From Microcoleus vaginatus WJT46-NPBG5 (GTDB taxonomy: Bacteria > Cyanobacteriota > Cyanobacteriia > Cyanobacteriales > Oscillatoriaceae): a stretch of 64,000 nucleotides of DNA. The stretch lies in contig JAHHHM010000028.1 in NCBI GenBank assembly GCA_019359355.1, positions 1 through 64,000 of the forward strand, written 5' to 3'. The position numbers and the translations under genes are program-made. Positions 7,895 through 13,093 of this stretch are shown here, in pieces; within the stretch, counting starts at the first letter, position 1; the number at the start of each line of letters is the position of its first letter. The notes under the pieces are model-generated. The model searched no databases. It saw only the letters and a list, made by a program, of their open reading frames with translations, and was not told the DNA's origin.

Positions 7895-10800
7895 ATGACC
7901 CCCAACTTCCCATTTATTAAATACCGCCACGCTCAAGATGAAGCGCCAGCTCTACCCGTTGAGCCGGCACAAGAGAATGCAAAGATTCGGCAAATGGAAG
8001 AAGCACTACACAGCGCAAACATACAACTAGAGTGGTATCGCACCCTCTACGAAAATAGTCCTGTCATCTACTTCACCTTAAACTCAGCCGATGCCAAGGT
8101 GCTGGCAGTCAACCATAGTGGCGCAGCCCTCCTGGGATATAGCGTTGAAGAATTAAAGTGTAACTCGCTTTTTGAGCTGGTTCACGCCCAAGACTTAGCC
8201 GTGCTGCAATCAGCCTTTGCCACTTGGGTGCAATTGCCTGTTACTGAGGGTAAATGGGAATTTAGGCTAATGCGTCAAGATGGCAGCATCTTATGGGTTA
8301 GAACCTCAATCCAGCTAAATATTAACGAGCAATTTCATGAAAACTACCATTGTTTAGAGCCGCTTTGTGCTGACTGTAAGCTTGGGTTGCATCTGTCAAA
8401 ACATCAACCTCACAATGCGTTTGCTACAAACCTCTGCTCATTGCCACAGGTAGAAAGTGAGCCTCTCAGTTCGATCTCAAACTCGCAGATCAACCTCCCC
8501 ACAGCCATCGTGTTAGTTTGTGAAGACATAACTGCCAGCAAGCAAGCAGAGGCAGCACTCGCAGAAGAGCGCCAATTTGTTTTTACGCTCCTCGATACCC
8601 TCGATGTTGCCGGCATCCCCATCACCTACGAAAACCAACCGGCAACCCAAGTAGTGCTGCACGACATCACCGGACGCAAGCGCTCAGAAGCCGAAAAAAC
8701 TCATTTAATTGCCTCTTTACAAGAACACGCCCGCCAGCAAGCCGCTGTTGCTCAATTAGGTCAGTTAGCCTTAGCCGGCATCCCTTTAGACAAGCTGCTA
8801 GACGAAGCGGTTGCCCTAGTGGCGCAAATATTAGAAGTAGAGTCTTGCAAAATTTTAGAATTACAAGCCGATGGTAAAGCCTTGCTACTGAAAGCCGGTG
8901 TCGGATCGCAGGAAGAACCCGGAGAGTCTATCGGCAGCCAGCTTTCAAGTGAGCCAGTGATGGAAACCTTGTGTGCAGAAACGCGATTCAGTGCACTCCC
9001 CTTGCTTCACCGCTACAGCACAGTCAGCGGGATTCGTGTAATTGCCGGCAGCAATCAGAATTGGGGCAAACAAGTCAAGTTAGGTCAAGAAGATGAAACT
9101 CCTCACTTAATACCGCAACTCTTACAAAACTTACCAGGAGGTTTGGAAGCACAGACTAACCAACGGCGCACCTTCACCCAAAATGACACTCACTTTCTGC
9201 AAGCAATCTCGAATGTGTTAGCCACTGCGATCGAACGTCATCGATCAGAGGCACATCGGCACTTGCTAGAACGGGCAATCACCGCCAGCAGTAATGGCAT
9301 CATCATCACCGATCCCACGCAACCAGATAACCCGATTATTTATGCCAATCCTGGTTTTGAACGCATAACCGGCTACAAACTGACTGAAATTATCGGTCGT
9401 AATTGCCGGTTCTTGCAGGGAAGCAATCGAGATCAGGCAGCCCTCCAGCCCTTGCGGCGAGCGATGGCAGAACAACGAGAGTGTCACGCCATCCTGCAAA
9501 ATTACCGTAAAGATGGCACATTATTTTGGAATGAATTATACATTTCGCCTGTAAGGGATGCTGCCGGTCGAGTGGTTAACTTTGTGGGCATCCAGAAAGA
9601 CATAACTGAGCGCAAACGAGCCGAAAAAGAGCGTGATCGCTTCTTCACCCTTTCCCTGGATATGTTGTGCATCGCCGGCTTTGATGGCTACTTCAAACGA
9701 TTGAATCCCGCCTGGGAAAAAGTTTTAGGCTGGAGAAAAGAAGAACTGCAAGCCAAACCCTTTATCGAATTTGTCCATCCAGACGATCGCAGCGCCACCT
9801 TAGCGGAAATGTCAAAATTAGCCGGTGGAACAGATACCCTCGCCTTTGAGAATCGCTATCGCTGCGCGGATGGCTCCTATAAGTGGCTGTGGTGGAATTC
9901 CACCGTCTGTTTGGAAGAAAACATTATTTATGCAGTCGCTCACGATGTAACTGAGCGAAAACAAGCCGAACAAGAATTGCGACGCTCTCACCGGCAAACC
10001 ATTAACATCCTGGAAAGCATCACCGACGCCTTTTTTGCAGTGGATCATCAGTTCCGCTTCACCTACCTCAATCAGGAAGCCGAACAGTTGCTGCGTCAAC
10101 AGCGCGAATCACTGATCGGTGAGCGGTTGTGGGATAAGTTTCCCGAAACAGTCGGCTCAACCTTTTATGTCGAATACCATAAAGCGTTGAGCGAACAAGT
10201 CCCCGTAAAATTTGAAGAATTCTATCCGCCTCTAGATGCCTGGTTTGCCGTTCACGCTTACCCAACTGCCGATGGACTTGCGGTTTACTTTACTGAAATT
10301 ACAGAACGCAAGCAAACAGAAGAAGGACTGCGACATCGTTTTGGACTTGAAGAGGCACTGGCACAGGTTTCAAGATTGTTTGTCTCCATCGGCGACACCG
10401 ATTTCAATTTAGTCCTGCAAGTGTTAGGAAAAGCGTTGGGAGCCAATCGCGCCTATATTTTCCAACTTCGAGAAAACAGGAGCAAAATTGATAATACCTG
10501 CGAGTGGTGTGACGAACGGACACAACCGCAGATCGACAACCTCCAAAATCAGGATACTGTCTTATTTCCCTGGCTAATGAGCCAGCTAGTGAGCGATCAA
10601 ACGATACAGATATCCGATGTGGAGACTTTACCGGCTCTCGCCGGCTCAGAAAAAGCAATTCTGCAAGCCCAAAGCATTCGCTCGCAGCTCATCGTTCCTA
10701 TAAAATTCGATAACGGTGAACTGTTTGGATTTATTGGGTTTGACGATACAGAAAAATGCCGGCAGTGGTCCGGTGAAGACGTTCGTGTGCTGCGCGTCAT

Positions 10801-13093
10801 TGCAGAAATGATTTCCAGCCACTTCGCCCGCCGGCAAGCCGAAAACGCACTGCGGGAAAGTGAAGCGCGATATCGCCGGATCGTGGAAACCACCACTGAA
10901 GGCGTTTGGGTACTGGATGCCCAAGGAAATACCAATTTTGTCAACCCTCAGATGGCTCAAATGCTGGGCTATCGCGTAGGCGAAATGTTAGGGCAGCCAT
11001 TCCTATCATTTGTAGACGCCTCAAGTCGCGCCAGCGCCCAAAATTATTTAGAGAACCGCCGACAAGGAATCGAAGAACGGCATGATCTTAAACTGCGCCG
11101 CAAAGATGACTCAGAACTGTGGGCGCTTATTTCTGCCAACCCCATCTTCGATGCAGCAGGACAATATGCCGGTGCCTTGAAGATGATTACGGATATCACA
11201 GATCGTAAAGCCGCTGAAGTCGCATTGCAATATCAAAGCGAACGCGAGCGACTAATGGGACAGGTGCAAACGCGCATTCGGCAATCGCTGAACCTGAATG
11301 CAATTCTCAACACCACCGTTGCAGAAGTGCGGCAATTTTTGGCAACCGAACGAGTGCTGATTTACCGCTTTGAGCCAAACTGGAGTGGAGTGGTTGAGGT
11401 AGAGTCCGTTGATGAGCGCTACACACCGCTACTGGGAACTATTATTTCCGACCCCTGCTTTGCCACAACTTATGTGGAGCGATATAAACAAGGTCGTGTC
11501 CGCACTATAGAGGATTTGGCTACTTCAGATTTGCAACAGTGTCACATCGATTTACTCAGTCAGTTTCAGGTAAAAGCCAATTTAGTCGTGCCGATTTTAC
11601 AGGGCGAAAATTTGTGGGGATTACTGATCGCTCACCATTGTTGTGCGCCACGCCGGTGGCAGACGTTGGAAATCGATCTGCTCAAGTCTCTAGCGATACA
11701 GGTGGGAATTGCCATCCAGCAATCAGAACTGTACCAGCAGGTGCAGTTGCTTAACACTCAGCTTAAGGGTCAAATCGAGGAACGCACCAGCGAACTGCAA
11801 GAGTCGCTGAACTTTGCCCAAGTGCTGAAGCGAATTACTGAACGGGTGCGCGAAAGTTTGGATGAAGGGCAGATTTTGCAAACCGCTGTCCAAGAAGTTG
11901 CGAGTGTGTTCAAAGTGGATTACTGTTGTGCGGCTTTGTACAACAGTGAGCGTACTACTGCCAGCATTAGTTATGAGTACACCCAAGCGTCTTTAGGTTC
12001 AGCTTTAGGGCAGATCATCCCAATGGTAGATGCGCCGGCAGTGTATGAAAAGCTAATAGACGGACAGCACTTTGCCGCCTGTGAATCTGGACGTTATCAG
12101 TTGTTTCAAGGCATTGAGTTAGGCGATCTCGCCTGTCCCGATCTGGCTCAGCCCCTATCGGCAAAACTGCTGTGTCCGATCTTTGATGATTGCGGTGTAA
12201 TTGGTCACTTGGCTGTTTTAAACACAGCCAGCCGGGTTTTTAGCAACACAGAAATTCTCTTAGTGCAGCAGGTGGCAAATCAATGCGCTATCGCACTACG
12301 TCAAGCCCGACTGTATCAAGCAGCGCAAGCCCAGGTGGAGGAACTACAAAAACTTAGCCGGCTCAAAGATGAGTTTCTCAGCACGGTTTCCCATGAATTG
12401 CGAACGCCCATGTCTAACATGAAAATGGCGATTCAGATGCTGGAGATTGCTGGAGGCTGCAAACTTTCAGCCTTCAAAACCGGCAACCCAGTCGTAAGTC
12501 CCTCACCGACCAATTTTTGCAACGACAAAACCGCTCGTTACCTCCAAATCTTGCATGACGAGTGCGAACGAGAAATTAGTTTAATTAATGATTTGCTGGA
12601 TTTGCAGCGACTTGATGCCGGTGTGCAGCCGTTGGCATTAGAAACGATTGAGATTCAAGCGTGGATTCCTCAACTCGTGCGACCTTTTCTAGAGAGATCT
12701 CGCAATCGGCATCAAGGGTTGCAGGTTCATGTAGAAGCGAACTTACCCCCGTTAATGTCTGATGCTTCCAGTCTGGAGCGCATTCTGGCAGAATTGTTAA
12801 ACAATGCCTGCAAGTATACTCCGCCCCACGAACAAATCACACTCAGTGCCAGCGTGGAAAGCGGAAAAATGCAGTTCAAGGTTACCAATTCCGGAACGGA
12901 AATTCCTGCTTCTGAACAGCCCCATATTTTTGAGAAGTTTTATCGGATTCCGAGTGCAGACCCTTGGAAACAGGGCGGCACCGGCTTGGGTTTAGCGCTG
13001 GTGCGGAAACTGATCGATCATTTGGAGGGCACGATTCACGTAGAAAGTGCTGCCGGTCAAACTTGCTTTACGGTAGAACTGCCCCTAACCTAA
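7895..13093 (+). CDS. Giant multi-PAS/GAF sensor histidine kinase with cyanobacteriochrome-like GAF
   Basis: This 1732-residue cytoplasmic kinase has no membrane segment and no receiver domain. Approximate order: coiled coil 25-40; PAS 40-235, with an inserted loop; a collapsed PAS remnant 235-270; GAF 285-455; three PAS domains at 460-575, 579-700 and 700-810; GAF 818-980; PAS 989-1115; GAF 1130-1280; GAF 1304-1470; HisKA from 1491, with phospho-acceptor His1500 in SHELRTP; HATPase to 1732 with LNNACKYTP, EKFYRI and GGTGLGLAL. The third GAF carries DPCF (Cys1188) and, 28 residues later, Cys1216-His1217 in QQCHIDLL followed by VKANLVVPI. This matches the two-cysteine arrangement of DXCF cyanobacteriochromes, so a bilin light sensor is likely. 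ATG at 7895 follows a GGAGG/AGGAG region. No partner response regulator lies next to it. Kinase identity is certain; photosensing is inferred. Confidence 0.95.
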   Translation: MTPNFPFIKYRHAQDEAPALPVEPAQENAKIRQMEEALHSANIQLEWYRTLYENSPVIYFTLNSADAKVLAVNHSGAALLGYSVEELKCNSLFELVHAQDLAVLQSAFATWVQLPVTEGKWEFRLMRQDGSILWVRTSIQLNINEQFHENYHCLEPLCADCKLGLHLSKHQPHNAFATNLCSLPQVESEPLSSISNSQINLPTAIVLVCEDITASKQAEAALAEERQFVFTLLDTLDVAGIPITYENQPATQVVLHDITGRKRSEAEKTHLIASLQEHARQQAAVAQLGQLALAGIPLDKLLDEAVALVAQILEVESCKILELQADGKALLLKAGVGSQEEPGESIGSQLSSEPVMETLCAETRFSALPLLHRYSTVSGIRVIAGSNQNWGKQVKLGQEDETPHLIPQLLQNLPGGLEAQTNQRRTFTQNDTHFLQAISNVLATAIERHRSEAHRHLLERAITASSNGIIITDPTQPDNPIIYANPGFERITGYKLTEIIGRNCRFLQGSNRDQAALQPLRRAMAEQRECHAILQNYRKDGTLFWNELYISPVRDAAGRVVNFVGIQKDITERKRAEKERDRFFTLSLDMLCIAGFDGYFKRLNPAWEKVLGWRKEELQAKPFIEFVHPDDRSATLAEMSKLAGGTDTLAFENRYRCADGSYKWLWWNSTVCLEENIIYAVAHDVTERKQAEQELRRSHRQTINILESITDAFFAVDHQFRFTYLNQEAEQLLRQQRESLIGERLWDKFPETVGSTFYVEYHKALSEQVPVKFEEFYPPLDAWFAVHAYPTADGLAVYFTEITERKQTEEGLRHRFGLEEALAQVSRLFVSIGDTDFNLVLQVLGKALGANRAYIFQLRENRSKIDNTCEWCDERTQPQIDNLQNQDTVLFPWLMSQLVSDQTIQISDVETLPALAGSEKAILQAQSIRSQLIVPIKFDNGELFGFIGFDDTEKCRQWSGEDVRVLRVIAEMISSHFARRQAENALRESEARYRRIVETTTEGVWVLDAQGNTNFVNPQMAQMLGYRVGEMLGQPFLSFVDASSRASAQNYLENRRQGIEERHDLKLRRKDDSELWALISANPIFDAAGQYAGALKMITDITDRKAAEVALQYQSERERLMGQVQTRIRQSLNLNAILNTTVAEVRQFLATERVLIYRFEPNWSGVVEVESVDERYTPLLGTIISDPCFATTYVERYKQGRVRTIEDLATSDLQQCHIDLLSQFQVKANLVVPILQGENLWGLLIAHHCCAPRRWQTLEIDLLKSLAIQVGIAIQQSELYQQVQLLNTQLKGQIEERTSELQESLNFAQVLKRITERVRESLDEGQILQTAVQEVASVFKVDYCCAALYNSERTTASISYEYTQASLGSALGQIIPMVDAPAVYEKLIDGQHFAACESGRYQLFQGIELGDLACPDLAQPLSAKLLCPIFDDCGVIGHLAVLNTASRVFSNTEILLVQQVANQCAIALRQARLYQAAQAQVEELQKLSRLKDEFLSTVSHELRTPMSNMKMAIQMLEIAGGCKLSAFKTGNPVVSPSPTNFCNDKTARYLQILHDECEREISLINDLLDLQRLDAGVQPLALETIEIQAWIPQLVRPFLERSRNRHQGLQVHVEANLPPLMSDASSLERILAELLNNACKYTPPHEQITLSASVESGKMQFKVTNSGTEIPASEQPHIFEKFYRIPSADPWKQGGTGLGLALVRKLIDHLEGTIHVESAAGQTCFTVELPLT

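Follow-up and report, generated by a model that had tools for sequence, protein, structure and literature searches.

The window analysed here, a stretch of 64,000 nucleotides from Microcoleus vaginatus WJT46-NPBG5, probably encodes (at a probability of roughly 0.7) a soluble sensor histidine kinase that senses light through two domains, a flavin-binding LOV domain and a bilin-binding cyanobacteriochrome GAF domain (GAF3), as predicted from its sequence. Since the protein combines a LOV domain carrying the putative adduct cysteine Cys504 with a GAF3 of the DXCF type, it seems to hold a flavin as well as a bilin sensor and may compare light conditions instead of sensing a single colour. The novelty lies in this pairing and not in the DXCF GAF, which taken alone is a further ordinary member of a well-studied family.

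Domain organisation and genomic context of the kinase

The kinase gene and its predicted domains occupy the following positions of the window:

7895..13093, + strand: open reading frame of a multi-domain sensor histidine kinase, 1732 aa, start codon ATG (the ortholog from genome G020 aligned from the same Met)
8012..8569, + strand: N-terminal PAS region, aa 40-225 (Pfam)
8606..8695, + strand: PAS remnant, C-terminal end only, about aa 238-267 (alignment with the G020 ortholog)
8732..9244, + strand: GAF1 region, aa 280-450, with no sign of bilin binding
9254..9631, + strand: LOV domain, aa 454-579 (PDB matches)
9395..9421, + strand: GRNCRFLQG motif, aa 501-509, with the putative flavin-adduct Cys504 at 9404-9406
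9632..10369, + strand: two PAS domains, aa 580-825 (Pfam)
10370..10849, + strand: GAF2, aa 826-985 (Pfam), with no bilin signature
10850..11224, + strand: PAS domain, aa 986-1110 (Pfam)
11228..11740, + strand: GAF3, putative DXCF-type cyanobacteriochrome GAF, aa 1112-1282 (PDB matches, alignment)
11450..11461, + strand: DPCF motif, aa 1186-1189, with the second cysteine Cys1188 at 11456-11458
11534..11557, + strand: QQCHIDLL motif from aa 1214, with the canonical bilin cysteine Cys1216 at 11540-11542 and His1217
11798..12322, + strand: GAF4, aa 1302-1476, without the canonical cysteine in the alignment
12362..13090, + strand: HisKA and HATPase_c kinase core, aa 1490-1732, with a HELRTP motif containing His1500 (Pfam, motif)

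An earlier note on this DNA had described a histidine kinase of 1732 residues. This is borne out by the reading frame and by the Pfam scores of its HisKA (52.3 bits, cut-off 26.9) and HATPase_c domains (87 bits, cut-off 26.4), which identify a sensor histidine kinase. Besides these domains, Pfam detected GAF in four stretches, and any one PAS family matched at up to five places. No membrane-type hydrophobic segment was found in the kinase, the highest mean over 19 residues being 1.39.

The source genome comprises 6,457,322 bases in 44 contigs. The genes near the kinase gene include psaB and genes for a phosphoribulokinase and a CpcD-domain reductase, which mark the host as a cyanobacterium. 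No response-regulator domain was detected in the nine neighbouring open reading frames that were scanned, which counts against the two-sensor reading.

An ortholog of 1993 aa is encoded at the syntenic place in G020, a genome of the same genus. Compared with this protein, 258 aa are absent in frame from the kinase near position 8606 (L122). The missing stretch covers one PAS domain and most of the next one, of which the C-terminal remnant is left.

Assignment of the predicted bilin and flavin domains

According to a search against the PDB the best match for GAF3 was 6oap (E 2.5e-57), followed by miRFP670nano (6mgh, E 1.1e-48), whereas the other GAF domains of the same protein, used as controls, reached E 1.1e-6 (GAF4) and E 0.62 (GAF2) at best and, for GAF1, proteins of the GAF type were absent from the matches up to E 1. 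On the basis of this difference and of the alignment, the reading of GAF3 as an ordinary non-bilin GAF domain was rejected. The DPCF motif with Cys1188, the QQCHIDLL motif with Cys1216 and His1217 28 residues further on, and VKANLVVPI (aa 1226) were all found where the earlier note had placed them. The domain that it had located at 11300-11760 was likewise recovered, but its limits are to be shifted slightly upstream (11228-11740).

The best dual-cysteine match among the domains checked residue by residue was the GAF domain of TePixJ (3vv4, E 3e-35; also 4glq), a typical blue/green DXCF domain, which shares with GAF3 the DPCF motif, the canonical Cys-His pair, the identical spacing of 28 residues and the Asp, Tyr and Arg positions. 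In the alignment Cys1188 corresponds to Cys494 of TePixJ and Cys1216 to Cys522, so that both the second and the canonical cysteine are in place. Both domains share 59 of the 151 aligned residues. Within a set of 42 TePixJ positions chosen by us, 23 are identical in GAF3, among them D492, C494, F495, Y463, R507, C522 and H523. The remaining 19 differ, including W499, which is replaced by Tyr1193, and this counts against the two-sensor reading. The same applies to the residue next to the bilin cysteine, which is His1217 here and Tyr in the G020 ortholog, and to the two closest solved GAF domains, which lack the second cysteine (DQYF in 6oap, DRYF in 6mgh), so that the nearest solved relatives are single-cysteine domains.

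In a tree of 82 GAF domains GAF3 pairs with its G020 ortholog (support 100/99), and its close relatives are all of the cyanobacteriochrome type. Its deeper placement is weak, being unstarred in this tree (93/78 with L149_1101 and L024) and different in a tree of 73 GAF domains (87/85 with L175 and L189). The motif WxDxxL marks the red/green (XRG) lineage according to the accessible part of PMC11284453. It is absent from GAF3, which has ISDPCF instead, and the five WxDxxL rows of the 82-GAF tree form a separate clade (100/94) with GAF3 outside. The possibility of an XRG domain which has re-gained a cysteine was rejected on these grounds, although the deeper tree is weak. Aligning the domain with characterised cyanobacteriochromes, which the earlier note had proposed as a check, thus revealed DXCF features and strong similarity to solved bilin-binding GAF domains; a grouping with non-bilin GAF domains and a lack of pocket residues, both named there as speaking against a bilin sensor, were looked for and not observed. 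The assignment of GAF3 as a DXCF cyanobacteriochrome is therefore supported, and violet/blue sensing would be expected from its family.

A single bilin reductase was detected in the genome, for which NCBIfam gave PcyA at 337.6 bits against a cut-off of 206. As one heme oxygenase is encoded as well, a supply of phycocyanobilin is to be expected. The genome furthermore contains a rich set of cyanobacteriochromes, with 56 pieces that tblastn matched to GAF3 at E ≤0.001. In one GAF domain of this genome (L003/L022, contig C10, 82700-83206) DPCF is accompanied by a Pro at the place of the canonical cysteine (NQPHIDLL), leaving the second cysteine only. In another (L010, contig C33, 87368-87862) SECIP replaces the DXCF motif, yet Cys-His is found at the canonical place; this domain resembles the DXCIP type, which is described without the canonical cysteine (PMC6628166).

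The earlier note had regarded five or so PAS domains and three other GAF domains as further inputs of the kinase. These counts agree with the Pfam results, but one of the PAS domains, at 9254-9631, is by its matches and motifs a LOV domain and would hence be a second photosensory domain that was missing from that account. The best PDB match of aa 454-579 reached E 3.4e-37, and the best 60 of its 163 PDB matches include the LOV domain 5dkk, aureochromes, phototropins, YtvA (2pr5) and a blue-light-activated kinase, others bearing generic names such as sensory box protein. The score against the NCBIfam YtvA family was 176 bits, which is below the cut-off of 250 set for the whole protein. The LOV motifs are intact, namely GRNCRFLQG with Cys504, which we take to be the flavin-adduct site in its established role, and NYRKDG (536), FWNELY (544) and FVGIQ (563), presumably the motifs with the Asn, Asn and Gln in contact with the flavin.

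Sequence constraint, proposed mechanism and alternative readings

The dN/dS ratio was determined for ten domains of the kinase in comparison with the G020 ortholog, with bootstrap ranges. Both photosensory domains are kept (LOV 0.080, range 0.024-0.160; GAF3 0.099, range 0.049-0.168) while GAF1 (0.436, range 0.275-0.693), GAF2 (0.325) and the N-terminal PAS (0.393) drift; PAS5 (0.083), PAS4 (0.093) and GAF4 (0.110) are kept too, and PAS3 and the kinase core have values of 0.156 and 0.241. Since PAS4, PAS5 and GAF4 are equally constrained, the low ratios argue only against a decay of LOV and GAF3, and we dropped constraint as a proof of photosensing. A further genome of the genus (G069, L208) holds at the same locus a GAF3 that is 95% identical. 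The gene copy is broken there, with matches in different frames, a stop in the GAF4 part and aa 433-506 absent, and is thus dispensable in this genome. The absent stretch corresponds to half of the LOV domain including Cys504, which counts against the two-sensor reading.

In the scheme that we infer for chromophore binding, colours, coupling and output, the LOV domain (aa 454-579) would bind a flavin and, in blue light, join it to Cys504 in an adduct that is lost again in darkness. GAF3 would hold phycocyanobilin via Cys1216, probably converting it to phycoviolobilin, and Cys1188 would add to C10 in the dark state to give violet/blue absorption, as ligation to C10 and conversion of PCB to PVB are described for DXCF domains in the accessible part of PMC11284453. 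Light would release Cys1188, yielding a longer-wavelength, probably green, photoproduct which longer-wavelength light would drive back. Our alignment has Val in GAF3 at column 1166 and Phe in the WxDxxL rows; if, as we assign it, this column is the position that the trapped-twist scheme gives to the beta-2 Phe, a green and not a teal photoproduct would be expected. The signal of GAF3 would persist until longer-wavelength light or slow reversion while that of the LOV domain would fade in the dark, and both would run along the serial PAS/GAF signalling helices to His1500 of the HisKA domain. As blue light would excite both sensors and longer wavelengths would reset the GAF domain only, the output of the kinase could reflect both blue light and the spectral balance.

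Alternatively, the bilin GAF may control the kinase alone, with a LOV domain that binds flavin but has no influence because four PAS/GAF domains follow it and leave it at too great a distance upstream, or that acts only as a scaffold or redox sensor. Several frames of the same genome that pair a GAF3-like with a GAF4-like GAF domain (L002, L008/L024, L011/L025, L016) would fit this reading, as no LOV motif was found in these stretches including flanks of 1.5 kb. The same holds for the matching open reading frames of 51 named GAF3 relatives, some of them ending at contig ends, in which no LOV motif was found either, and for the loss of half of the LOV domain in G069. However, the whole gene is broken in G069, so the loss there was not selective for the LOV domain. 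Taking furthermore into account that the LOV domain has the lowest dN of the ten domains (0.024) and that its adduct cysteine and motifs are intact, control by the bilin GAF alone seems unlikely.

A plain blue-light LOV kinase, with GAF3 either lacking a chromophore or reduced to a relic that binds bilin without switching, appears quite improbable. Bilin binding in GAF3 is a prediction from the sequence, and engineered DXCF motifs can photocycle poorly according to the accessible part of PMC5240096; conservation nevertheless extends to both cysteines, to Asp1186 and His1217 and to the pattern of the family, GAF3 is strongly constrained and its close tree relatives are of the type noted above. 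Finally, neither domain might sense light, the protein being an ordinary multi-PAS/GAF kinase in which both respond to a ligand or to redox state. Although most PAS and GAF domains are in general not photosensors, this is made extremely improbable by the presence of the cofactor genes and by the fact that one protein carries the complete diagnostic motifs of two distinct photosensor families.

LOV domains paired with DXCF domains in other cyanobacteria, and comparison with known receptors

Should the kinase indeed integrate a flavin and a bilin sensor, it would allow a test of how light signals of different lifetime sum in a single two-component kinase, and such a soluble kinase with relatives in several families would be a possible source of optogenetic parts. 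LOV matches at E ≤1e-25 were obtained in 249 of the 388 genomes of the order. From the listed matches closest to the LOV domain of this kinase, often lying in long frames, 80 regions were taken, five of them from its own genome. This non-random sample contained 62 distinct LOV open reading frames with the adduct cysteine, the gene of this kinase not being among them. Fourteen of the 62 also hold a GAF domain reaching at least 120 bits with a cyanobacteriochrome profile, and 11 of the 62 combine the LOV domain with a dual-cysteine GAF domain (DxCF, and the canonical cysteine followed by His or Tyr); three of the 14 (L131-L133) have neither DxCF nor the canonical cysteine. The 11 frames derive from eight genomes (G020, G039, G062, G065, G081, G115, G147, G169) of four families, and the strict kinase motif was detected in seven of them.

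On a tree built from 63 LOV domains, the 12 that are paired with such a GAF domain, this kinase included, need six state changes, at least three of which are forced by well-supported branches, and in the 73-GAF tree the pairing with LOV needs four, again with at least three forced. These changes may be gains or losses. We tentatively propose that proteins joining LOV with a dual-cysteine cyanobacteriochrome represent a recurrent, so far undescribed class of flavin-bilin hybrid receptors in this order, which arose by more than one assembly event. Their blue sensor with thermal decay and their photochromic blue/green sensor would share one output and form a colour-gated detector of blue dose. 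Domain shuffling without a functional link would also yield recurrence. A preferential pairing of LOV with DXCF over red/green GAF domains was considered and no claim is made, because the count was DXCF by definition, the 68 GAF domains used to train the profile were rich in DXCF members and the own genome is DXCF-rich.

The flavin-binding motif set of the LOV domain is common to YtvA, phototropins, aureochromes and LOV kinases, none of which, to our knowledge, contains a bilin GAF. The output of TePixJ is a methyl-accepting protein, in contrast to the kinase with a LOV domain described here. The closest solved sequence to GAF3, 6oap, is named as a dual sensor histidine kinase and is presumably PPHK, a single kinase with a phytochrome and a cyanobacteriochrome, both binding bilin and none flavin. 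The second closest, miRFP670nano (6mgh; DRYF and C-Y, a single cysteine), was engineered from NpR3784. Few natural receptors are known to us in which two kinds of chromophore chemistry are combined, namely neochromes, which combine a phytochrome with LOV, and Ppr. These resemble the present kinase in having two chromophore types per polypeptide, though neither contains a cyanobacteriochrome GAF. Neochromes, Ppr and arrays of cyanobacteriochrome GAF domains are named as multi-sensor receptors in the accessible part of PMC9614035, and Ppr is described as a combination of PYP and a bacteriophytochrome in that of PMC5812497.

A pairing of LOV with a cyanobacteriochrome is not mentioned in the accessible parts of PMC9614035, PMC6798134, PMC5812497, PMC8846402 and PMC4469895. 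The partly accessible literature that was searched yielded no description of both domains in one natural protein, which is a weak negative, most subscription papers lying outside the search. Existing surveys probably list LOV-plus-GAF architectures in general.

The kinase of G169 (L149, 1734 aa), from another family of the same order of cyanobacteria, contains LOV, DXCF GAF, GAF4 and kinase in identical order. It is 55% identical over the C-terminal 807 columns and about 31% in the N-terminal half, with fewer domains between LOV and GAF3. Another DXCF GAF, encoded on the opposite strand, adjoins this kinase gene. In L131, L132 and L133, which are open reading frames of 1870-1871 aa, the LOV domain is directly followed by a cyanobacteriochrome-like GAF domain with an insertion, in which EQPH or EQAH takes the place of the canonical cysteine.
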